Shown here piece by piece: positions 53,748 through 62,520 of a DNA stretch of 64,000 bases. Position 1 is the first letter of the stretch. Every line of letters starts with the position of its first letter. Origin of the DNA: Verrucomicrobiota bacterium (GTDB lineage Bacteria; Verrucomicrobiota; Verrucomicrobiia; Limisphaerales; UBA1319); the NCBI GenBank assembly GCA_022709905.1, contig JAKLHY010000042.1:1-64000 (forward strand), given 5' to 3'. The notes below the pieces were generated by a model that worked only from the letters and a program-made list of their open reading frames with translations, was not told where the DNA came from and did not search any database. The translations under genes and the position numbers were made by a program.

Positions 53748-56700
53748 CTACGGTTCCGCGGTCATGGCGGCCAGAAGCGGTGCCGCGGTGGTCACCCTGG
53801 AAATGAAATCGATGCTGGTGACTTCGACCTCCGGCCAGGGATTATCGTAGGTGCCCAGATACAGGCGCAGGGTGGCCCCGTAACGCTGGGCGATTGGATT
53901 GGCACCGGTCCAGGCCACGCGGCCACGTTCGAGAGAGGGTTCGGCCGCCTCGCCCTGACGCAGCCACCAATCGCGCAGGTCGCGTCCATATACAATCTCC
54001 TGCTCTCGTTGGCGGCCATCGGCGTAATGCCAGACGTAGCTGCCAATAACCGTGCCATCCTTGATCGCGTCCGGGATTCGCGGAAGTCCGGCGCAAGTTC
54101 CATGAAGGACGCGGAGGCGTCTGAGCTTCTGGTTCACGAGGATTCCACTGACGTTCGTTGGATACATGCCTTGACCCGTTCGCCACATGGCGCCAGTCGT
54201 CTCCAAACGCCGCAACATCACCACCCCCCGGATGTCGAATGTCACCCCTCCCAGGATGACCAAGCCCGACGGAAGGGTGGTGAGATCATTATCGGCATTC
54301 CACTGGGAACCGTCCAGAATGAGAGGCCCACGGAGACTGCAGTTGTATTGCCGGCCGAGGTCGATCTGGTGTGGGCCAGCGCCAGAATCGCGCAATGGCC
54401 ATGACGACTCATCGGCATTTACGATAATCGGCCAAGCGTTGGTGCCGCCCGCTCCGGGGCTCTCCGCCGCCATGCGTTTGCGCCAATAGGCCCGGGCGTA
54501 GGCCCTGATCCGGTCGGCTTCGGTGGAGCCTGGCATCGCCCTGTAATCCTGGGTACGCCACGGAAAGGCCTCGAGCTGTCTGAGCCGGAAGCTCCAGTCG
54601 CCCAACAGGAGACGGTGACTGTTAGTCGGCAGGAACAGGACTTCGCAGATGGCGTCGGCGTTGTCTCCCAGATCAAACACTTGCCGGCGGTTTGGGAGAT
54701 CCCACACCTCAACCACGGACCGGTCTAATCCACCACTCCCACTGTCGTCGACCGGTGACACCAATCGTTTGCCATCGGGGGTAAAAGCCAGCCATCCCCC
54801 GGCGCTGCGAGAGGGCCTCTCGCTGAGGAGCGTTCTGGTTTGCGCATCCCACAACCTGAGCTGGTTATCCCGTCCAGCAACCGCGATGATTCGTCCGTCC
54901 GGACTAAACCAACCTCCCCCGCCCGCGGTGCCATGCTGCACCGCCTCGAGGCTGAATAAACGCTGGCCAGATTCCACGTCCCATACGGTCGGGACAGCCG
55001 TGTCGCTCAGATCGTCACCAACGCCACACACCAGTAGCGTGCGTCCGCTGGGGTCAAAGTTAACGAGGAACACCGTTGGCACCTGGGTCTTGAAGTGATG
55101 CAACTCCCGTCGTGTGCTGACGTCCCAAATCCTCACGAAACCCGCCATGTCGCCAACGGCAAGCCGCCGGCCATCCGGGCTGTAAGCGACACAAAGCACG
55201 GCGCGATCCTGACCGGGAAACTGGCCCAGGGAGCGTCCTGTTTCCACCTCCCAGAGGCGCACCGTGTCATCTAAGCCCCCCGTGACCAAGTGCCGGCCGT
55301 CCGGGCTGAAGGCGGCGCCCATCGGGAAGTGGCACCGCGAATGGATGGTCCATTGGAGTTGCCCACTGAGAGAATCCCAGAGGTTTAAGTCGCCGCAATA
55401 CGGAGCCGCGGTGATCCACCGGCCATCGGGGCTGCAGGCCACCGACCAGGGCACAAAGTCGAGTTCGAAGAGAGATCGTCCCGGTTTGGCGCTCCAGATC
55501 TTGGCTTCACCATCCCAACTGAGGGTGGCCAACAACCGTCCATCCGAACTGAACCCAAGGGTATCCACCAGGGCGAGATGACCGCAGAGCTTCAACCCCT
55601 CACGCTTCCGCACTAAATCCCAAATCCTGACGAGTCTCTCGGCGCCAAAGGTGGCGAGCCAATCGCCGTTCGGGCTGAATGCGGCGTTATAAACCCGTTC
55701 GGGGATGCTGAACACCTCCTCGCCATTATCCACCTGGTAGATCCGGGCTGTTCCGCTGTCGCCGGTTGTGCAGACAAACCGTTCGTCCTCGCTGAAAACC
55801 ACCCGCCCCTGGGCGAGTTGGAAGAGCCGCAGTGCGCCCAATACGCGCCCCATTTTACCTTCAGACCACAAGGCGACGCGGTGCGCATGGTCGATAGTGG
55901 CATAGTGTCTGCCGCTCGGGCTCGGGAACACGGCGAGATAGATTTTGGGATCGAGTTCGACGACGGCCTTTTCCCGGCCCGAATTGGCATCGTGCCAGCG
56001 CAGATCCAAGCCTTGCTGGACGATCAGCTGCCGGCTGTCGGTCGTGAAGCGCAAAACGTCCACGGCACGATCTGCCAGCCTCAGGCTGAAGCACTCACGC
56101 CCGGACTGCCGCTCCCAGACGCGGACCTCGCCACGAGCGGTGCCCGCCGCGAGCCGCTGACCAGTTCCATCATAGGTCACCCCTGTCACTCCGGGTCTAC
56201 GCCCCGTCGATCGCTCCATCCTCCAGGTTGACTCCGAGTGGAGTTCGAACGATCCCCGCTGTTGTCCGCTGACCAGGTCGACACACCGGATCGTCCCATC
56301 GGGCATCGCGAGGCTTAATTCGGATTCGTGCGGATGCGGGACCCAACACACCGCCGAGTTCGTGCGCTCGGTGAGTGTCCAAAGCAATTTGCCATCCGCC
56401 ACGTCCCAGACCCTGAGTTGCCCGTCGCGGCAGTCGGTCAACAGGCGCTTGGCGCTCGCGTCAAAGGCCACCCTCGAGACCAGCATCCCCACGTCATAAA
56501 AGGGCGTGGTGACCCGGTTCGTTGCGGTCAGGATGCTCAGAATCTCCTGATGACACCTGGCGACCAGGTAGCCCCATTCCCAGTGCCGCAACGCGGTCGG
56601 GCATTTCAATAACAGATCCAGGGCTTGGTTGATGCTGCCCTTCTGGATGGCGCCGTCGGCTCCCTTAATGTTCGAGTAATAAGTCTCCAGCTTCTCAAGC

Positions 56701-57830
56701 TGGCGCGCCGCGGAGATACGCCAGAGCGACACCGCGGTTCCCAATAACACGGTCAGGACCAGGATCGCGCTCAAAGTGGCCAAGGCAGGTTTGCGTCGGC
56801 ACCATAGCAAAAGCCGCTCGATCGCCCGCACCGGCCGCGCCCGGATTGGCATGGCCCCCAGCCAACGTTCCAAGTCCTCCGCTAGAGCCTCCGCCGAGGC
56901 ATACCGACGGCCCGGTTCTTTGCTCAGGCACTTCAGACAAATGGTCTCCAAGTCACGATCCACGGCCGGGTTGATCGCGCTGGGCCGATCGGGCTCGCGT
57001 TCGCGAACTTGGACCATTGTTTCCAGAGGGGTGGGCGCGCGGAACAACGCCCGGCCGGTCAGCAGTTCAAACAGAATTGCGCCCAGACTGTAGACATCCA
57101 CCGCAGTCGTCAGTGGCTTGCCGCCTCCGGCGGCCTGCTCCGGCGCCATGTAATTGGGTGTGCCCAGGGCCGCGTGGCTCAGTGTCAGATTGCTGTCCCC
57201 ATGCAGCAACTTGGCCAGGCCGAAATCAGTGACGTGAGGCTGACCCTGGGTGTCCAGCAGAATATTGGCCGGCTTGAGATCACGATGGAGCACGCCGTGC
57301 TGGTGGGCATAGTGAACGGCTCGCGCCACCGTGGCAAGCAACTCGGCCGCGCGCCGGGGCGCGAAGGGCCCGTGCTTGAGTTCATGGGCCAGATTCGGCC
57401 CTTCGACCAGCCGCATGCTGTAGAAATCCTGGCCCTGATGATGGCCGACCTCGTAGATCGAGACGATGTTCGCGTGATCCAGGCTGGCCGCGGCCGTGGC
57501 CTCGGTGTGGAACCGCCTCACGAACTCCGGCGAGGCCAGCGGACCGGCCAAGATCATCTTCAGCGCCACCGTGCGATCCAGACTCGCCTGCCGCGCCTTA
57601 TAGACCACCCCCATCCCGCCGCGCCCAATCTCCTCGAAAAGTTCGTAGTCACCGAAGCGCTCAGGTTGGCCTGCCGTGCCGGACAGGCCACTGGGAAAGG
57701 AGGCAGATTCCTCTTCGACGGCATCAGAACTGAGGCCGATCTCAAACAGGCATCGGGGACAAAGTCTCCCCAGCGCACCCGCTGCCAACGGCGCGCCACA
57801 ATCGGCACAAACCCTCGTCGATGAGTTCAT
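53748..57830 (-). CDS. Membrane Ser/Thr protein kinase with C-terminal WD40 domain
   Basis: A 1360-residue protein. The N-terminus has a zinc-ribbon-like pair (CADC 8-11, CPRC 24-27). The kinase domain (about 60-320) keeps [11 protein letters not shown], Lys91, [11 protein letters not shown] (182-192) and DFGLAK (202-207), so it should be active. A transmembrane helix lies at about 348-370, and the remainder contains many WD40 repeats (GH/WD pairs from about residue 450 to 1050, such as [50 protein letters not shown]), probably two beta propellers, then about 250 residues of beta-rich sequence without a known family. The kinase faces the cytoplasm; the propellers would sit outside. The ECF sigma gene is 227 bases upstream on the same strand and is its likely partner. 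Confidence 0.88.
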
Positions 57831-57906
57831 ACGGTTATCCCTTGCCCGTAGTCATCGGTTTCCAGAACCGCTCGCCCTCGCTATGAACCGTGAGTAGGTA
57901 GGGCGC

Positions 57907-57950
57907 GACCGCTGGGCGCGCCGAACGTTAAGACGGCCGGCCCAGCGGTC
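57907..57950. repeat. Inverted repeat, 11-base arms
   Basis: GACCGCTGGGC (57907-57917) and GCCCAGCGGTC (57940-57950) are exact reverse complements with 22 bases between. It lies in the gap between the kinase gene and the ECF sigma gene, so it could attenuate or stabilise a common transcript, or be an extragenic palindrome. Confidence 0.6.
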
Positions 57951-58057
57951 CGGACCCGTTCCAACCATCGGGTTCATGGCCCGTGGGTAGGTCCGGCAGG
58001 AACAGGCGGCTCATGATGAAATAAAGCAAATTTGGAGAAAGGTGGGAGGAAAAATGC

Positions 58058-58816
58058 TCACCCGCCAATCACCTCCATCAGGTGGTGAATTTCTTCGTCG
58101 ATTTCGCTGGGACAACTCACCGTTTGGGCGATTTCTGCGCGCAAGAGTGCCCGAAAGCGTCGCTTGAGCCGATGCAGTTCGTACTTCACCGTGCCTTCGG
58201 CAATCCCCAGTTCTCCCGCCACTTGGCGGTAACTGCATCCGCTCGACTCCCCCGGCAGCAATTGCTCGAGCAGCTTGAAGTGCTGGGCATGGCCTTTGGC
58301 GACGAACTCTTCCCTCAAGCGATGATGGACCTGCTCGAGAACGGTTAAAGCCCACCGGCGTTCGTAGAGCCGATCGGCGGTCAGTTCATGGCCCAAATCT
58401 TGGAGATACCGGCTTTCCGCTTCCGCTTCATCCAGAGGAATGGACCGGCTGCCGCCCCCGCGCTTCTGGGCCTTGGCCCGGTCCCATTCGTTGGTCAAAA
58501 AGTGTCGAAGCGAGCTTAGGAGAAACCAGCGGAACTTGCCTCGTCCCGGCTGGGCCATACCCGCGAAATTCTTCTGCAATAACCGGGCAAAGAACTCCTG
58601 GGTCAAGTCCTGGGCATCCGGGGCCGAATAGCCTTGTCGCCGCACAAAGGCGTAGAGCGGATACCAGTAAGTGCAGCAGAGTCTCTCCAGCGCTTCGCTA
58701 GCCTCAGGCGACTCTTGTTGCCCAGCGGCTAGCACGACGCTCCAATGGGTCGTCGCAAATTGTCCAGCCGTTTGCGCGACAGCTTCAGACTGATGGTTTT
58801 CCCTGTCTAACACCAC
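58058..58816 (-). CDS. ECF-type sigma factor linked to the WD40 kinase
   Basis: A 252-residue sigma factor of the kind that starts FATTHWSVVLAAGQQ and has TYWYPLYAFVRRQGYSAPDAQDLTQEFFARLL as region 2, a central GKFRWFLLSSLRHFLTNEWDRAKAQKRGGG stretch and a region 4 helix-turn-helix (YRQVAGELGIAEGTVKYELHRLKRRFR). I recall this type as the group of ECF factors found beside Ser/Thr kinases in Planctomycetes and Verrucomicrobia, where phosphorylation, and not an anti-sigma factor, is thought to control activity. Here too, no anti-sigma gene is present and the kinase gene follows. The gene is divergent from the large PPDK-like protein, about 400 bases away. Confidence 0.9.
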   Translation of the reverse strand: MVLDRENHQSEAVAQTAGQFATTHWSVVLAAGQQESPEASEALERLCCTYWYPLYAFVRRQGYSAPDAQDLTQEFFARLLQKNFAGMAQPGRGKFRWFLLSSLRHFLTNEWDRAKAQKRGGGSRSIPLDEAEAESRYLQDLGHELTADRLYERRWALTVLEQVHHRLREEFVAKGHAQHFKLLEQLLPGESSGCSYRQVAGELGIAEGTVKYELHRLKRRFRALLRAEIAQTVSCPSEIDEEIHHLMEVIGG

Positions 58817-59220: not shown

Positions 59221-62200
59221 ATGAGACAAACAACAATTCAATCCGCGGTAAATTACCCGCTTCATCCGAGTCAAGTCCGGCGCCTGGCGTGGTGGAGTGC
59301 GCTGCGGTGTGGCGTTGTTCAGATTTACCTAGTGTCCTTGCTGCTAATGGTTGGGGGGGCCATTTCTGGTCTGGCTGAAGATTGGTTTACGGCCATCGAT
59401 AGCCAAACCAACGGATGGATCTCTTTTACCGGCAGCATGCGGACCAACCGTCTGGTCACGCTGCAGACATCGACGAACCTTCTCGAGTGGACGACCAGCG
59501 CGGTCCTGGACCATCGAACATTTCAGCCGGATCAATGGTATCAACTCGAGTCGACCAATCAGCATTTTCACTTCATCGATCCGATCGGATCCCAGGATTC
59601 TGTTCGGTTCTATCGGTTTATCTTGACGGCTTTTGCCGAGACGAATGACTGGAAGAACCAGATCTTATTCCCAAAAGACGCTTTTGCGAATGAACCCGCC
59701 ATCCCGGACGAGCCGAAGGTTCGGTGGCTGAAATTTCTCATCTTCATGGACCAGCCCGGTCGAGTGTATTACCAAGACAGCCAGAAGTATCTTTTGCATC
59801 AGCATTTTGCCGCCGCAAAGTGGCCGCGCTTTGCGAACCTCAGCACACCCGAGTTTGATCGGATCTCGCTTTATAACACCAACCGTCAAATCCTCCTGGG
59901 AACGGTGTTGCTGCCGCCCCGGGAGGGGATCCTCGAGTATGGCGTGCAGTTCTCGGCCCGAGATCCGATTCCCCGGGAACTGGTCAGGCAAAGCTTTGAA
60001 CTGGTGCGATCGACAATTTTGGCCGGATCGGAAACCGGTGTGTTTTATTTCCCGTCTTTTGAGCAGACCGAGACTGCCGCAGTGGATGCCAGTTTTTTTG
60101 CCGCCCATGGGATCCGAGTGAGCACGGTGAATCGATGGTTGGAAGGGAACCAGGTTTACGCCTCGGGATGGGCGCTGGGAACCGGTCGGTTCTTGCCAGC
60201 CTCGGACATCGCCACAGCCTATGCCGAAGGAAGACTTCGCCCCCAAGATATCCTGTTGACCGACGGTGTGCCTGCCGAGTTGCCTTTTGTGGCGGGCATT
60301 ATGACCACAACCCCCGCCACGCCCAACTCGCATGTGGCCATAATGGCGGGAGCGTATGGGATTCCATTTGCCTATGTGGCGGAAACCAACTTGCAGAGCC
60401 GGCTGCGGGAACTGGATGGCCGCGAGGTGGTGCTGCAGGCGTCGGTGCAGGAGGGATACGGCCGCATCAGCGTCATTCCTGTGGACGGGACCATCCCCGC
60501 GGCGTTGCGCGCTGAATTGCTGGGGATGCAACGGCCCGCCGAGGCGGAGATCAAATCCAAGGCGCATTTGGGGGCCTACCACGGCGCCGTCGATGGGCTT
60601 TGGCTGGATGACATCTGTTATTTTGGCGGCAAGGCCTCGCAATACGGACTGCTGCGGCGAACGATTCCTCAATATACCCCCGAGGCGATCGCATTTTCGT
60701 TTGATCTATGGGATGACTTCATGGCCCAGCCGCTTCCCACCGGCAGATCGTTAGGCGAGGAAATCCAAAAGCGCCTTGCAGGCTTCACTTATCCGCCAGA
60801 CATGCAGGCCGTGAAAACCAATCTTGCCGCCATTCGCACACTGATCACCGATTCCACCCTTTTCACCCCGGCACAACAGCAATCGATCCTGGCGGCCTTG
60901 GCTCCATTTGATCCGCAACGAAACATTCGTTTCCGAAGTTCGAGCAACGCCGAGGACGCCCAAACTTTTGCGGCTGCCGGGCTCTATGACAGTTATAGCG
61001 GTTGCCTGGCTGACGATTTGGATGGCGACTCAGCCGGCCCATGCCGATGTGATCCGCAGGAAAACAAGGAACGCGGAGTGTTCCGGGCGATCCGCAAGGT
61101 CTATGCCAGTTTTTATAACGACAACGCTTATCTCGAACGCCTTCGCCACGGCATTGACGAAGCTCAGGTTGGAATGGCTTTGCTGGTGCATCATTCAACG
61201 CCCGACGACCTCGAGTTGGCCAACGGCGTGGCGACCATCACCCTTCGAGATCAGGGATTCTTCGGCGTGGAAACCGTGGCCAATCTGGTCACCCAAAAGG
61301 GCGCGGTCTCTGTCGCCAATCCGGAAGGCAATGCCAAGCCCGAGATTGTGGAAATCACGCCTGGCGGAGCTCCCATGCTGCTGCAAGCATCGAGCCTGGT
61401 GCCTCTGGGCGAGCATGTGCTTGAGTGGGAGGATGAATATGCCACTCTCGCTGACCTCCTGTTCCAGGTCCATAGCAACTATGTTCGCCAGTTGCCCGTC
61501 TCGGCAAGCAAGTCCAACCTCGTCTTGGATCTCGAATACAAGAAGGTCACTCCCGAGAACCTCCAGATCAAACAGGTCCGATCTCTGCCCCCCCCGGCAA
61601 TGACTGCGGCCATACCCTACCTGTTGAACGAATCCACATCCTATTGGCTGTATCAACGGGAAGGCATCGATGTCTTCGCCAATCATCATTTAAAGTGTTT
61701 TCTCACCTTGCAGACGTATAGCGGCGCCGTGGTCAGATCCAATTTAAACCAGACGCTCTACACCCAGGCCCGTTTGGAGTTTCGACGTGGCACAAACCGG
61801 ATTGTCCTGGAGGGTGCCCCGTCCACCTGGCCCGAGGCCACTCACACGGTCACGTTTGACGAACGATTGGGCTTTGTCGTGACGGACACTTGGATCCACG
61901 GGAGCGGGGCTGACCTCTGGAGATTTGAGCTGGTATCGACCGTGCCGGCCACGGCGACTGTTTCAGCGCCTTTCCTTCCCCAGGGTGAGATTCGCAAACG
62001 GCTCCGAGTCGCCTACGCCACGCCGATGCCCAAATATGATTCCTGGAATAACCGCAGCATCACGGAGCCGTTGGAAGAGATCCAGCTGATCCCTTGCCCT
62101 GACTTGGCCTCGTTGGCTGCTGTCGATCCCGTCCGCCGCACCTCGGGGAATGTGGAATTTGAGATTCGTTTCCTGGAGTCGACTCAGGCGTCGGGTCCTC

Positions 62201-62520
62201 CGGTGGGGGCCGATAAGAGCGCCTGGGGCTATTACTTGGCGGCCCTTTCACCGTGGGCGCAAGCGCGCATCAGCGGTCTCCTGGCTGAGCCGGTGGTTTT
62301 GCGTGATTATTATGCGACTTCCGCTTCGCCTGGGCACAAAAACCTGACCACCTGGTATCTTTTTGAGCCGCGCCTGGATCCCGATCTGCCGCCCTCCCAA
62401 CTCGAGGAATTGAGGAACAAGGATATCGAACTCATCTATCTTCAATACGACATTATTGGGAATCGAACCACAGTGATGTTGATGGGCGCCAACGGCAAGT
62501 TTCGACCGCTGGCGCCTTGA
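59221..62520 (+). CDS. Exported protein with permuted PPDK/PEP-synthase-like domains
   Basis: A 1099-residue protein. Residues 1-52 carry a hydrophobic segment (about 33-51) with the look of a signal peptide or anchor. Residues about 57-134 are the RFYR-type module (TLQTSTNLLEWTT ... VRFYRFIL). Residues 355-388 contain TTTPATPNSHVAIMAGAYGIPFAYV, the swivelling phosphohistidine domain of PEP-utilising enzymes with His371. After it, at about 465-860, comes a PEP/pyruvate-binding ATP-grasp-like domain: YFGGKASQYGLLRR with Lys471, RFRSSSNAEDAQTFAAAGLYDSYSG with Arg572, and LEYKKVTPENLQIKQVRSLPP at its end. In PEP synthase and PPDK the order is the reverse (ATP-grasp first). No PEP-binding barrel follows. 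The remainder is beta-rich and unknown. A role outside the cytoplasm without ATP is hard to explain. Confidence 0.8.
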   Translation: MRQTTIQSAVNYPLHPSQVRRLAWWSALRCGVVQIYLVSLLLMVGGAISGLAEDWFTAIDSQTNGWISFTGSMRTNRLVTLQTSTNLLEWTTSAVLDHRTFQPDQWYQLESTNQHFHFIDPIGSQDSVRFYRFILTAFAETNDWKNQILFPKDAFANEPAIPDEPKVRWLKFLIFMDQPGRVYYQDSQKYLLHQHFAAAKWPRFANLSTPEFDRISLYNTNRQILLGTVLLPPREGILEYGVQFSARDPIPRELVRQSFELVRSTILAGSETGVFYFPSFEQTETAAVDASFFAAHGIRVSTVNRWLEGNQVYASGWALGTGRFLPASDIATAYAEGRLRPQDILLTDGVPAELPFVAGIMTTTPATPNSHVAIMAGAYGIPFAYVAETNLQSRLRELDGREVVLQASVQEGYGRISVIPVDGTIPAALRAELLGMQRPAEAEIKSKAHLGAYHGAVDGLWLDDICYFGGKASQYGLLRRTIPQYTPEAIAFSFDLWDDFMAQPLPTGRSLGEEIQKRLAGFTYPPDMQAVKTNLAAIRTLITDSTLFTPAQQQSILAALAPFDPQRNIRFRSSSNAEDAQTFAAAGLYDSYSGCLADDLDGDSAGPCRCDPQENKERGVFRAIRKVYASFYNDNAYLERLRHGIDEAQVGMALLVHHSTPDDLELANGVATITLRDQGFFGVETVANLVTQKGAVSVANPEGNAKPEIVEITPGGAPMLLQASSLVPLGEHVLEWEDEYATLADLLFQVHSNYVRQLPVSASKSNLVLDLEYKKVTPENLQIKQVRSLPPPAMTAAIPYLLNESTSYWLYQREGIDVFANHHLKCFLTLQTYSGAVVRSNLNQTLYTQARLEFRRGTNRIVLEGAPSTWPEATHTVTFDERLGFVVTDTWIHGSGADLWRFELVSTVPATATVSAPFLPQGEIRKRLRVAYATPMPKYDSWNNRSITEPLEEIQLIPCPDLASLAAVDPVRRTSGNVEFEIRFLESTQASGPPVGADKSAWGYYLAALSPWAQARISGLLAEPVVLRDYYATSASPGHKNLTTWYLFEPRLDPDLPPSQLEELRNKDIELIYLQYDIIGNRTTVMLMGANGKFRPLAP

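Follow-up and report, generated by a model that had tools for sequence, protein, structure and literature searches.

The window, a 64,000-nucleotide stretch of a Verrucomicrobiota contig, contains an intact open reading frame at positions 59221–62520 (plus strand) that begins with ATG and encodes a protein of 1099 amino acids. The frame is kept in relatives, which align with the window protein over ~1050 residues at 35–53% identity; given this, the codon-position GC of 0.60/0.45/0.66, and the invariance of H371 and K471 in all 22 aligned sequences, it is not a chance reading frame. A second full copy (43% identity) lies on another contig of the same genome. Divergent from this gene, behind a gene for an ECF-type sigma factor, is a Ser/Thr protein kinase with WD40-like repeats (53748–58816, minus strand). 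The window protein has the domain order signal peptide, beta module, conserved domain, swivel, ATP-grasp, and C-terminal all-beta domain, with the following features:

59221–59376, plus strand: signal peptide (residues 1–52) with an RR..R n-region and a hydrophobic core at 30–44, ending in AISGLA ahead of EDW
59380–59625, plus strand: N-terminal beta module (54–135) of the TSTNLLEW...FYRF type, with AlphaFold strands at 55–137
59668–60246, plus strand: conserved N-terminal domain (150–342), delimited by alignment, candidate phosphate-acceptor (substrate) domain
60247–60495, plus strand: phosphohistidine swivel domain (343–425) with the motif TPNSH371V, from a PF00391 match and alignment with the GWD-type LVSHVAVRARN
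60331–60333, plus strand: CAT codon of the catalytic histidine, H371
60583–61587, plus strand: ATP-grasp nucleotide-binding domain (455–789) in canonical internal order, from PPDK_N and Foldseek matches
60631–60633, plus strand: K471, equivalent to Lys22 of RPH/PPDK
60934–60993, plus strand: loop R572-SSxNxED...AAGLYDS591, in which all 22 sequences share R, N, E, D, AGLY, and S
61003–61050, plus strand: insert C595...DxDxD...C610, a Ca-loop-like acidic motif between a Cys pair, invariant and confined to the long family
61534–61581, plus strand: E772...Q785-x-R787, closing strand of the ATP site, of the PPDK/RPH C-lobe Glu and Gln-x-Arg type
61591–62517, plus strand: C-terminal all-beta domain (791–1099) with invariant H822 and K825, defined from an isolated model and from split genes in relatives

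Pfam analysis matched PPDK_N (PF01326) at residues 468–671 above its gathering score (E 1.8e-12) and the PEP-utilizers swivel domain (PF00391) at 352–392 below its cut-off (E 0.0021; 18.1 vs. 23.1 bits), and both families were reported at E ≤ 10 in all 16 long homologues. Across the 22 aligned sequences, long and short relatives together, H371, K471, R572, N576, E578, D579, S591, and E772 were invariant, and Q785 and R787 were present in 21, all but a truncated frame. The swivel His371 and, after it, the ATP-grasp part with its Lys and Arg motifs lie where the initial annotation had placed them. Counting from the Arg, R572 falls on RPH Arg117 and S591 on RPH Thr136. The Lys22Ala variant of RPH is inactive and its Arg117Ala and Thr136Val variants transfer no phosphate to the substrate, His825 being the attacking residue and Glu297 dispensable (PMC4844700). 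The residues of the first half-reaction (H371, K471, R572, S591, E772, Q785, and R787) are all retained in some 16 long homologues as well as in several shorter relatives. Given the invariance in the 22-sequence alignment and the roles of the RPH mutants, no catalytic residue appears to be missing and the nucleotide site looks intact at the sequence level. The ATP-grasp Lys, Arg, Ser/Thr, Glu, and Gln-x-Arg and the swivel His that characterize the PPDK_N/phosphohistidine dikinase superfamily are all present, and both the family assignment and the catalytic residues are well supported. As had been noticed from the letters, there is no PEP barrel: PF02896 had no Pfam match in the window protein or the 16 long homologues, and the genome's own PPDK does carry this domain.

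The full-length AlphaFold model had a mean pLDDT of 78 and a pTM of 0.65. Foldseek matched it to the RPH ATP-binding domain 5hv6 (TM 0.73–0.75 by target length) and also to PPDK, in line with an ATP-grasp fold. The H371 loop of the swivel was poorly modelled (pLDDT ~35–40), so that the swivel-to-ATP geometry could not be read from the model. A single-sequence search of the PDB yielded nothing useful, and in a viral fold library Gp139 of Bacillus phage G was the sole match with E under 0.001.

Four regions had escaped the initial annotation: the ~190-aa N-terminal domain, the beta module ahead of it, the Cys-DxDxD-Cys insert, and the ~300-aa C-terminal beta domain. K171, H193, G227, P278, and G320 of the N-terminal domain do not vary in the long or the short family, nor in a cytoplasmic Streptomyces relative, in which the domain is retained even though the C-terminal domain is lacking. 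Because it is the sole other domain kept by minimal relatives, the predicted acceptor site is most probably located in 150–342, at K171/H193. A profile search of the PDB with this domain found no convincing relative; a 61-residue match to mitochondrial phosphatidate cytidylyltransferase (E 0.0006) was not persuasive. The TSTNLLEW...FYRF motif of the beta module also occurs at three further loci (L003, L008, and L009), and the same module stands at the front of separate C-terminal partner proteins at L054, L059, and L062. Row L010 of one alignment, taken from a wrong frame, was disregarded.

The C-terminal domain, modelled in isolation, reached a pLDDT of 87.4 and a pTM of 0.86 and had no PDB match above TM 0.22; a kievitone-hydratase-like fold was discarded at TM ~0.2 in the full and isolated models. 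We found the domain in eight genomes, always within or beside the kinase part except for one ~75-residue fragment in the genome of the window itself (G000:C57:36748–36972; L081:4770–5000, minus strand), apparently the remnant of a third copy. In genomes G437, G211, and G234 it is encoded apart, by a neighboring gene that has a signal-like start and a copy of the beta module of its own. Kinase part and C-terminal domain are two neighboring exported genes at L059:2954–6452 (G437) and L054:8324–11373 (G211), the second gene of the latter being spread over two overlapping frames; at L062:10868–13476 (G234:C290) an N-terminal part lies beside the separate exported C-terminal-domain gene, and swivel and ATP-grasp are missing. 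The domain probably binds or positions a substrate or partner.

At the N-terminus, an n-region of ~29 residues with positive charges at R20, R21, and R29 precedes a core (30–44) whose Kyte-Doolittle mean of 2.33 is unsurpassed by any other 15-residue stretch, and the charges flanking the core are +3 before and −3 after. Every short Verrucomicrobia relative, and every long homologue whose N-terminus is complete, has an N-terminal hydrophobic core; positive charge precedes it in nearly all homologues, and nearly all likewise show the C-outside charge pattern. The Streptomyces relative (L063) has no signal peptide and no look of export. The Tat route was rejected: the RR pair of the window protein is absent as a conserved feature in L005, L007, and L014. 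By alignment, the C595/C610 pair and its DxDxD loop are absent from the short relatives; we infer that the pair would fit an oxidizing compartment. EF-hand motifs adjoin the signal in one short relative, and DxDxDG-type repeats were seen by eye in others. The signal-peptide-like start noticed earlier therefore held up against core, flank charges, and homologues, and as far as sequence features tell, nothing marks the N-terminus as non-exported. Signal features and family conservation are strong and the export signal itself is well supported; the protein is accordingly predicted to be exported, to the periplasm or beyond the cell. Our literature search found no paper on an exported PPDK_N protein and no described precedent of such a machine outside the cell interior. 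Its predicted export, not its domain order, is the unusual part of the window protein.

The domain order had been read as that of a circularly permuted relative, on the premise that PEP synthase, PPDK, and related kinases have their ATP-grasp part ahead of the swivel domain and that all of these use cytoplasmic ATP. The latter statement is loose, since plant glucan water dikinase (GWD) acts in plastids, and the former fails for GWD and phosphoglucan water dikinase (PWD), which have the reverse order: in the plant and algal enzymes the catalytic His lies upstream of a C-terminal PPDK_N (PMC12892837, PMC11986951, PMC5575247), and in potato GWD it is His992 (PMC12892837). A genome from elsewhere in the bacterial order of the window (G022) encodes a GWD1-type alpha-glucan water dikinase (L080:5559–8807, on G022:C58; GWD1_pHisD at 117 bits) with Ig_N_CWD1 at residues 20–133, GWD1_pHisD at 608–712, and PPDK_N from 754. 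In a tree of ATP-grasp domains, a branch with support of 100/98 separated the long and short families, the Streptomyces relative, and the G022 GWD from PEPS, RPH, and PPDK. Because the GWD row had been rejoined in PPDK_N order and formed a long branch, the place of GWD inside this swivel-first group is unsure; support for uniting the long and short families to the exclusion of GWD was 44/9, too low to show a clade. Subthreshold GWD1_pHisD matches occurred in two short relatives, L056 and L057 (E 0.0018 and 0.0044). In view of the published GWD/PWD order, the G022 protein, and the tree grouping, the swivel-first order is an old trait that a whole group has in common, rather than a permutation peculiar to the window protein. 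The grouping further suggests that GWD enzymes, which phosphorylate starch, are part of a broader bacterial set of swivel-first proteins, a point of relevance to the origin of starch phosphorylation.

The family is sparse, with paralogues in several genomes. Within the class sample, 16 of 286 genomes had a match to the long or short form, some by the shared ATP-grasp part alone, and 14 of 388 genomes in the phylum sample matched the long-family profile, several of them weakly. One long-family member (L006, JAKPTZ010000040.1) lies on a 5.9-kb contig binned as Deltaproteobacteria, reflecting either horizontal transfer or misbinning. A search for co-occurring genes, proposed with the initial annotation, found no fixed neighbor around the relatives and none hinting at a substrate; recurrent neighboring histidine kinases proved unrelated, linked through a common ATPase domain alone.

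Our preferred reading, to which we give a probability of roughly 55%, is that the window protein is an exported phosphohistidine-relay dikinase of an uncharacterized bacterial family that has its domain order in common with glucan water dikinases. For its activity, ATP source, and acceptor we infer a cycle in which ATP would bind the cleft of the ATP-grasp domain (455–789), H371 would take the beta-phosphate as AMP and Pi leave, and the phospho-His domain would then swing to the acceptor site placed in 150–342, where the receiving hydroxyl would perhaps belong to a glycan or another extracytoplasmic molecule. For a glycan, the kinship with GWD is perhaps a hint, and the only one. The earlier suggestion of an unfamiliar substrate held up. 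Against the preferred reading count the scarcity of ATP outside the cytoplasm, the poor model around H371, the lack of a conserved neighbor gene hinting at a substrate, and the absence of any carbohydrate-binding module in the Pfam results; as the Km of RPH for ATP is ~8 μM (PMC4844700), low extracytoplasmic ATP, by analogy, need not exclude activity. More tentatively, and with doubt outweighing confidence, we propose a bacterial dikinase family outside the cytoplasm in which the His would be charged from scarce ATP and glycan or protein polymers, in the periplasm or outside the cell, would be phosphorylated via the undescribed acceptor and C-terminal beta domains.

The same scarcity of outside ATP makes sensing or scavenging plausible, and the protein might instead bind or hydrolyze extracytoplasmic ATP as a sensor, scavenger, or phosphate carrier with no dedicated acceptor molecule, as the absence of any acceptor domain of known kind, with neither a PEP barrel nor a recognized substrate domain, would allow. 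We consider this unlikely, since a pure binder would have no need of the invariant swivel His or of K171 and H193, which are kept family-wide. Less probable still is that the hydrophobic N-terminus leaves the catalytic domains in the cytoplasm or at its face with normal access to ATP; the long n-region and the cytoplasmic, signal-less Streptomyces relative fit such an arrangement, but the charge asymmetry predicts that the C-terminal part is outside, the signals of relatives are of the usual cleavable type, each split partner gene has a signal too, and the Cys pair is invariant.

We give equally little credence to a genuine exported GWD acting on alpha-glucans. Like GWD/PWD, the window protein places the swivel before the ATP-grasp domain, has no GG loop before the His and an [LNV]SHV motif in its place, and carries the RS(S/D)xNxED...AGLYDS loop, which is also present in the GWD1-type protein. 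The ATP-grasp domain of GWD1-type enzymes is internally shuffled, however: in the G022 protein the RSDSNAED...AGLYDS segment follows the KQVWASKWNDRAY segment, whereas in the window protein, where the order is the ordinary one, RSSSNAED comes before RKVYASFYNDNAY. PWD has an ATP-grasp domain of ordinary internal order. Pfam found GWD1_pHisD (PF22973) in none of the 16 long members, and no CBM45, CBM20, or other carbohydrate-binding module and no GWD N-terminal Ig domain (Ig_N_CWD1) in the window protein or long members; a search of the window's own genome for GWD1_pHisD was likewise negative, though that control search gave no match anywhere. The N- and C-terminal domains are the window protein's own, not those of GWD, and it has an export signal, in contrast to the plastidial plant GWD and the G022 protein, which has no obvious one. 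These features set the window protein apart from GWD proper.

A further alternative is an enzyme running in reverse outside the cell, making ATP from phospho-substrate, AMP, and Pi or dephosphorylating its substrate; in its favor, phosphorylated organic matter serves as a nutrient. This we regard as very improbable: PPDK does run toward ATP in bacteria and protozoa (PMC5371819), but no neighboring gene supports such a role and AMP would be as scarce outside as ATP.

Should the window protein prove active, it would place a phosphohistidine dikinase in surroundings where little ATP is believed to be available to bacteria, and would suggest that bacteria phosphorylate molecules beyond the cytoplasm.

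Among known systems, rifampin phosphotransferase (RPH) and two-component small-molecule dikinases (HpeHI) resemble the window protein in their ATP-grasp fold (5hv6 being among the best matches), in lacking a PEP barrel, and in their Lys/Arg/(Thr/Ser)/His relay residues, and they illustrate how the same relay is served by differing acceptor domains. These are cytoplasmic, and RPH differs in its order of ATP-grasp, acceptor, and swivel (PMC4844700); where they have the GG-type His loop T/SxxGGxxxH (PMC12167813), the window protein has a TPxSH motif, and the NCBIfam model RIF_Ptrans_rph scored the window protein at 29.3 bits, short of its cut-off of 999. PEP synthase and PPDK have homologous ATP-grasp and swivel domains but combine the canonical order with a PEP/pyruvate barrel and fall on the other side of the tree. 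The Streptomyces "PEP/pyruvate-binding domain-containing protein" (WP_331760287.1) shares the N-terminal domain, the swivel and ATP-grasp order, and the K and His motifs, and differs in having no signal peptide, C-terminal beta domain, or Cys insert; its gene (L063:2190–6870, on a plasmid of Streptomyces sp. NBC_01471) lies next to genes for an ATP-grasp protein and an MFS transporter, a row that looks like a small biosynthetic cluster. The swivel-first order is thus already known from GWD and PWD; what is new in the window protein is that a GWD-like framework carries an export signal and two domains not described before.
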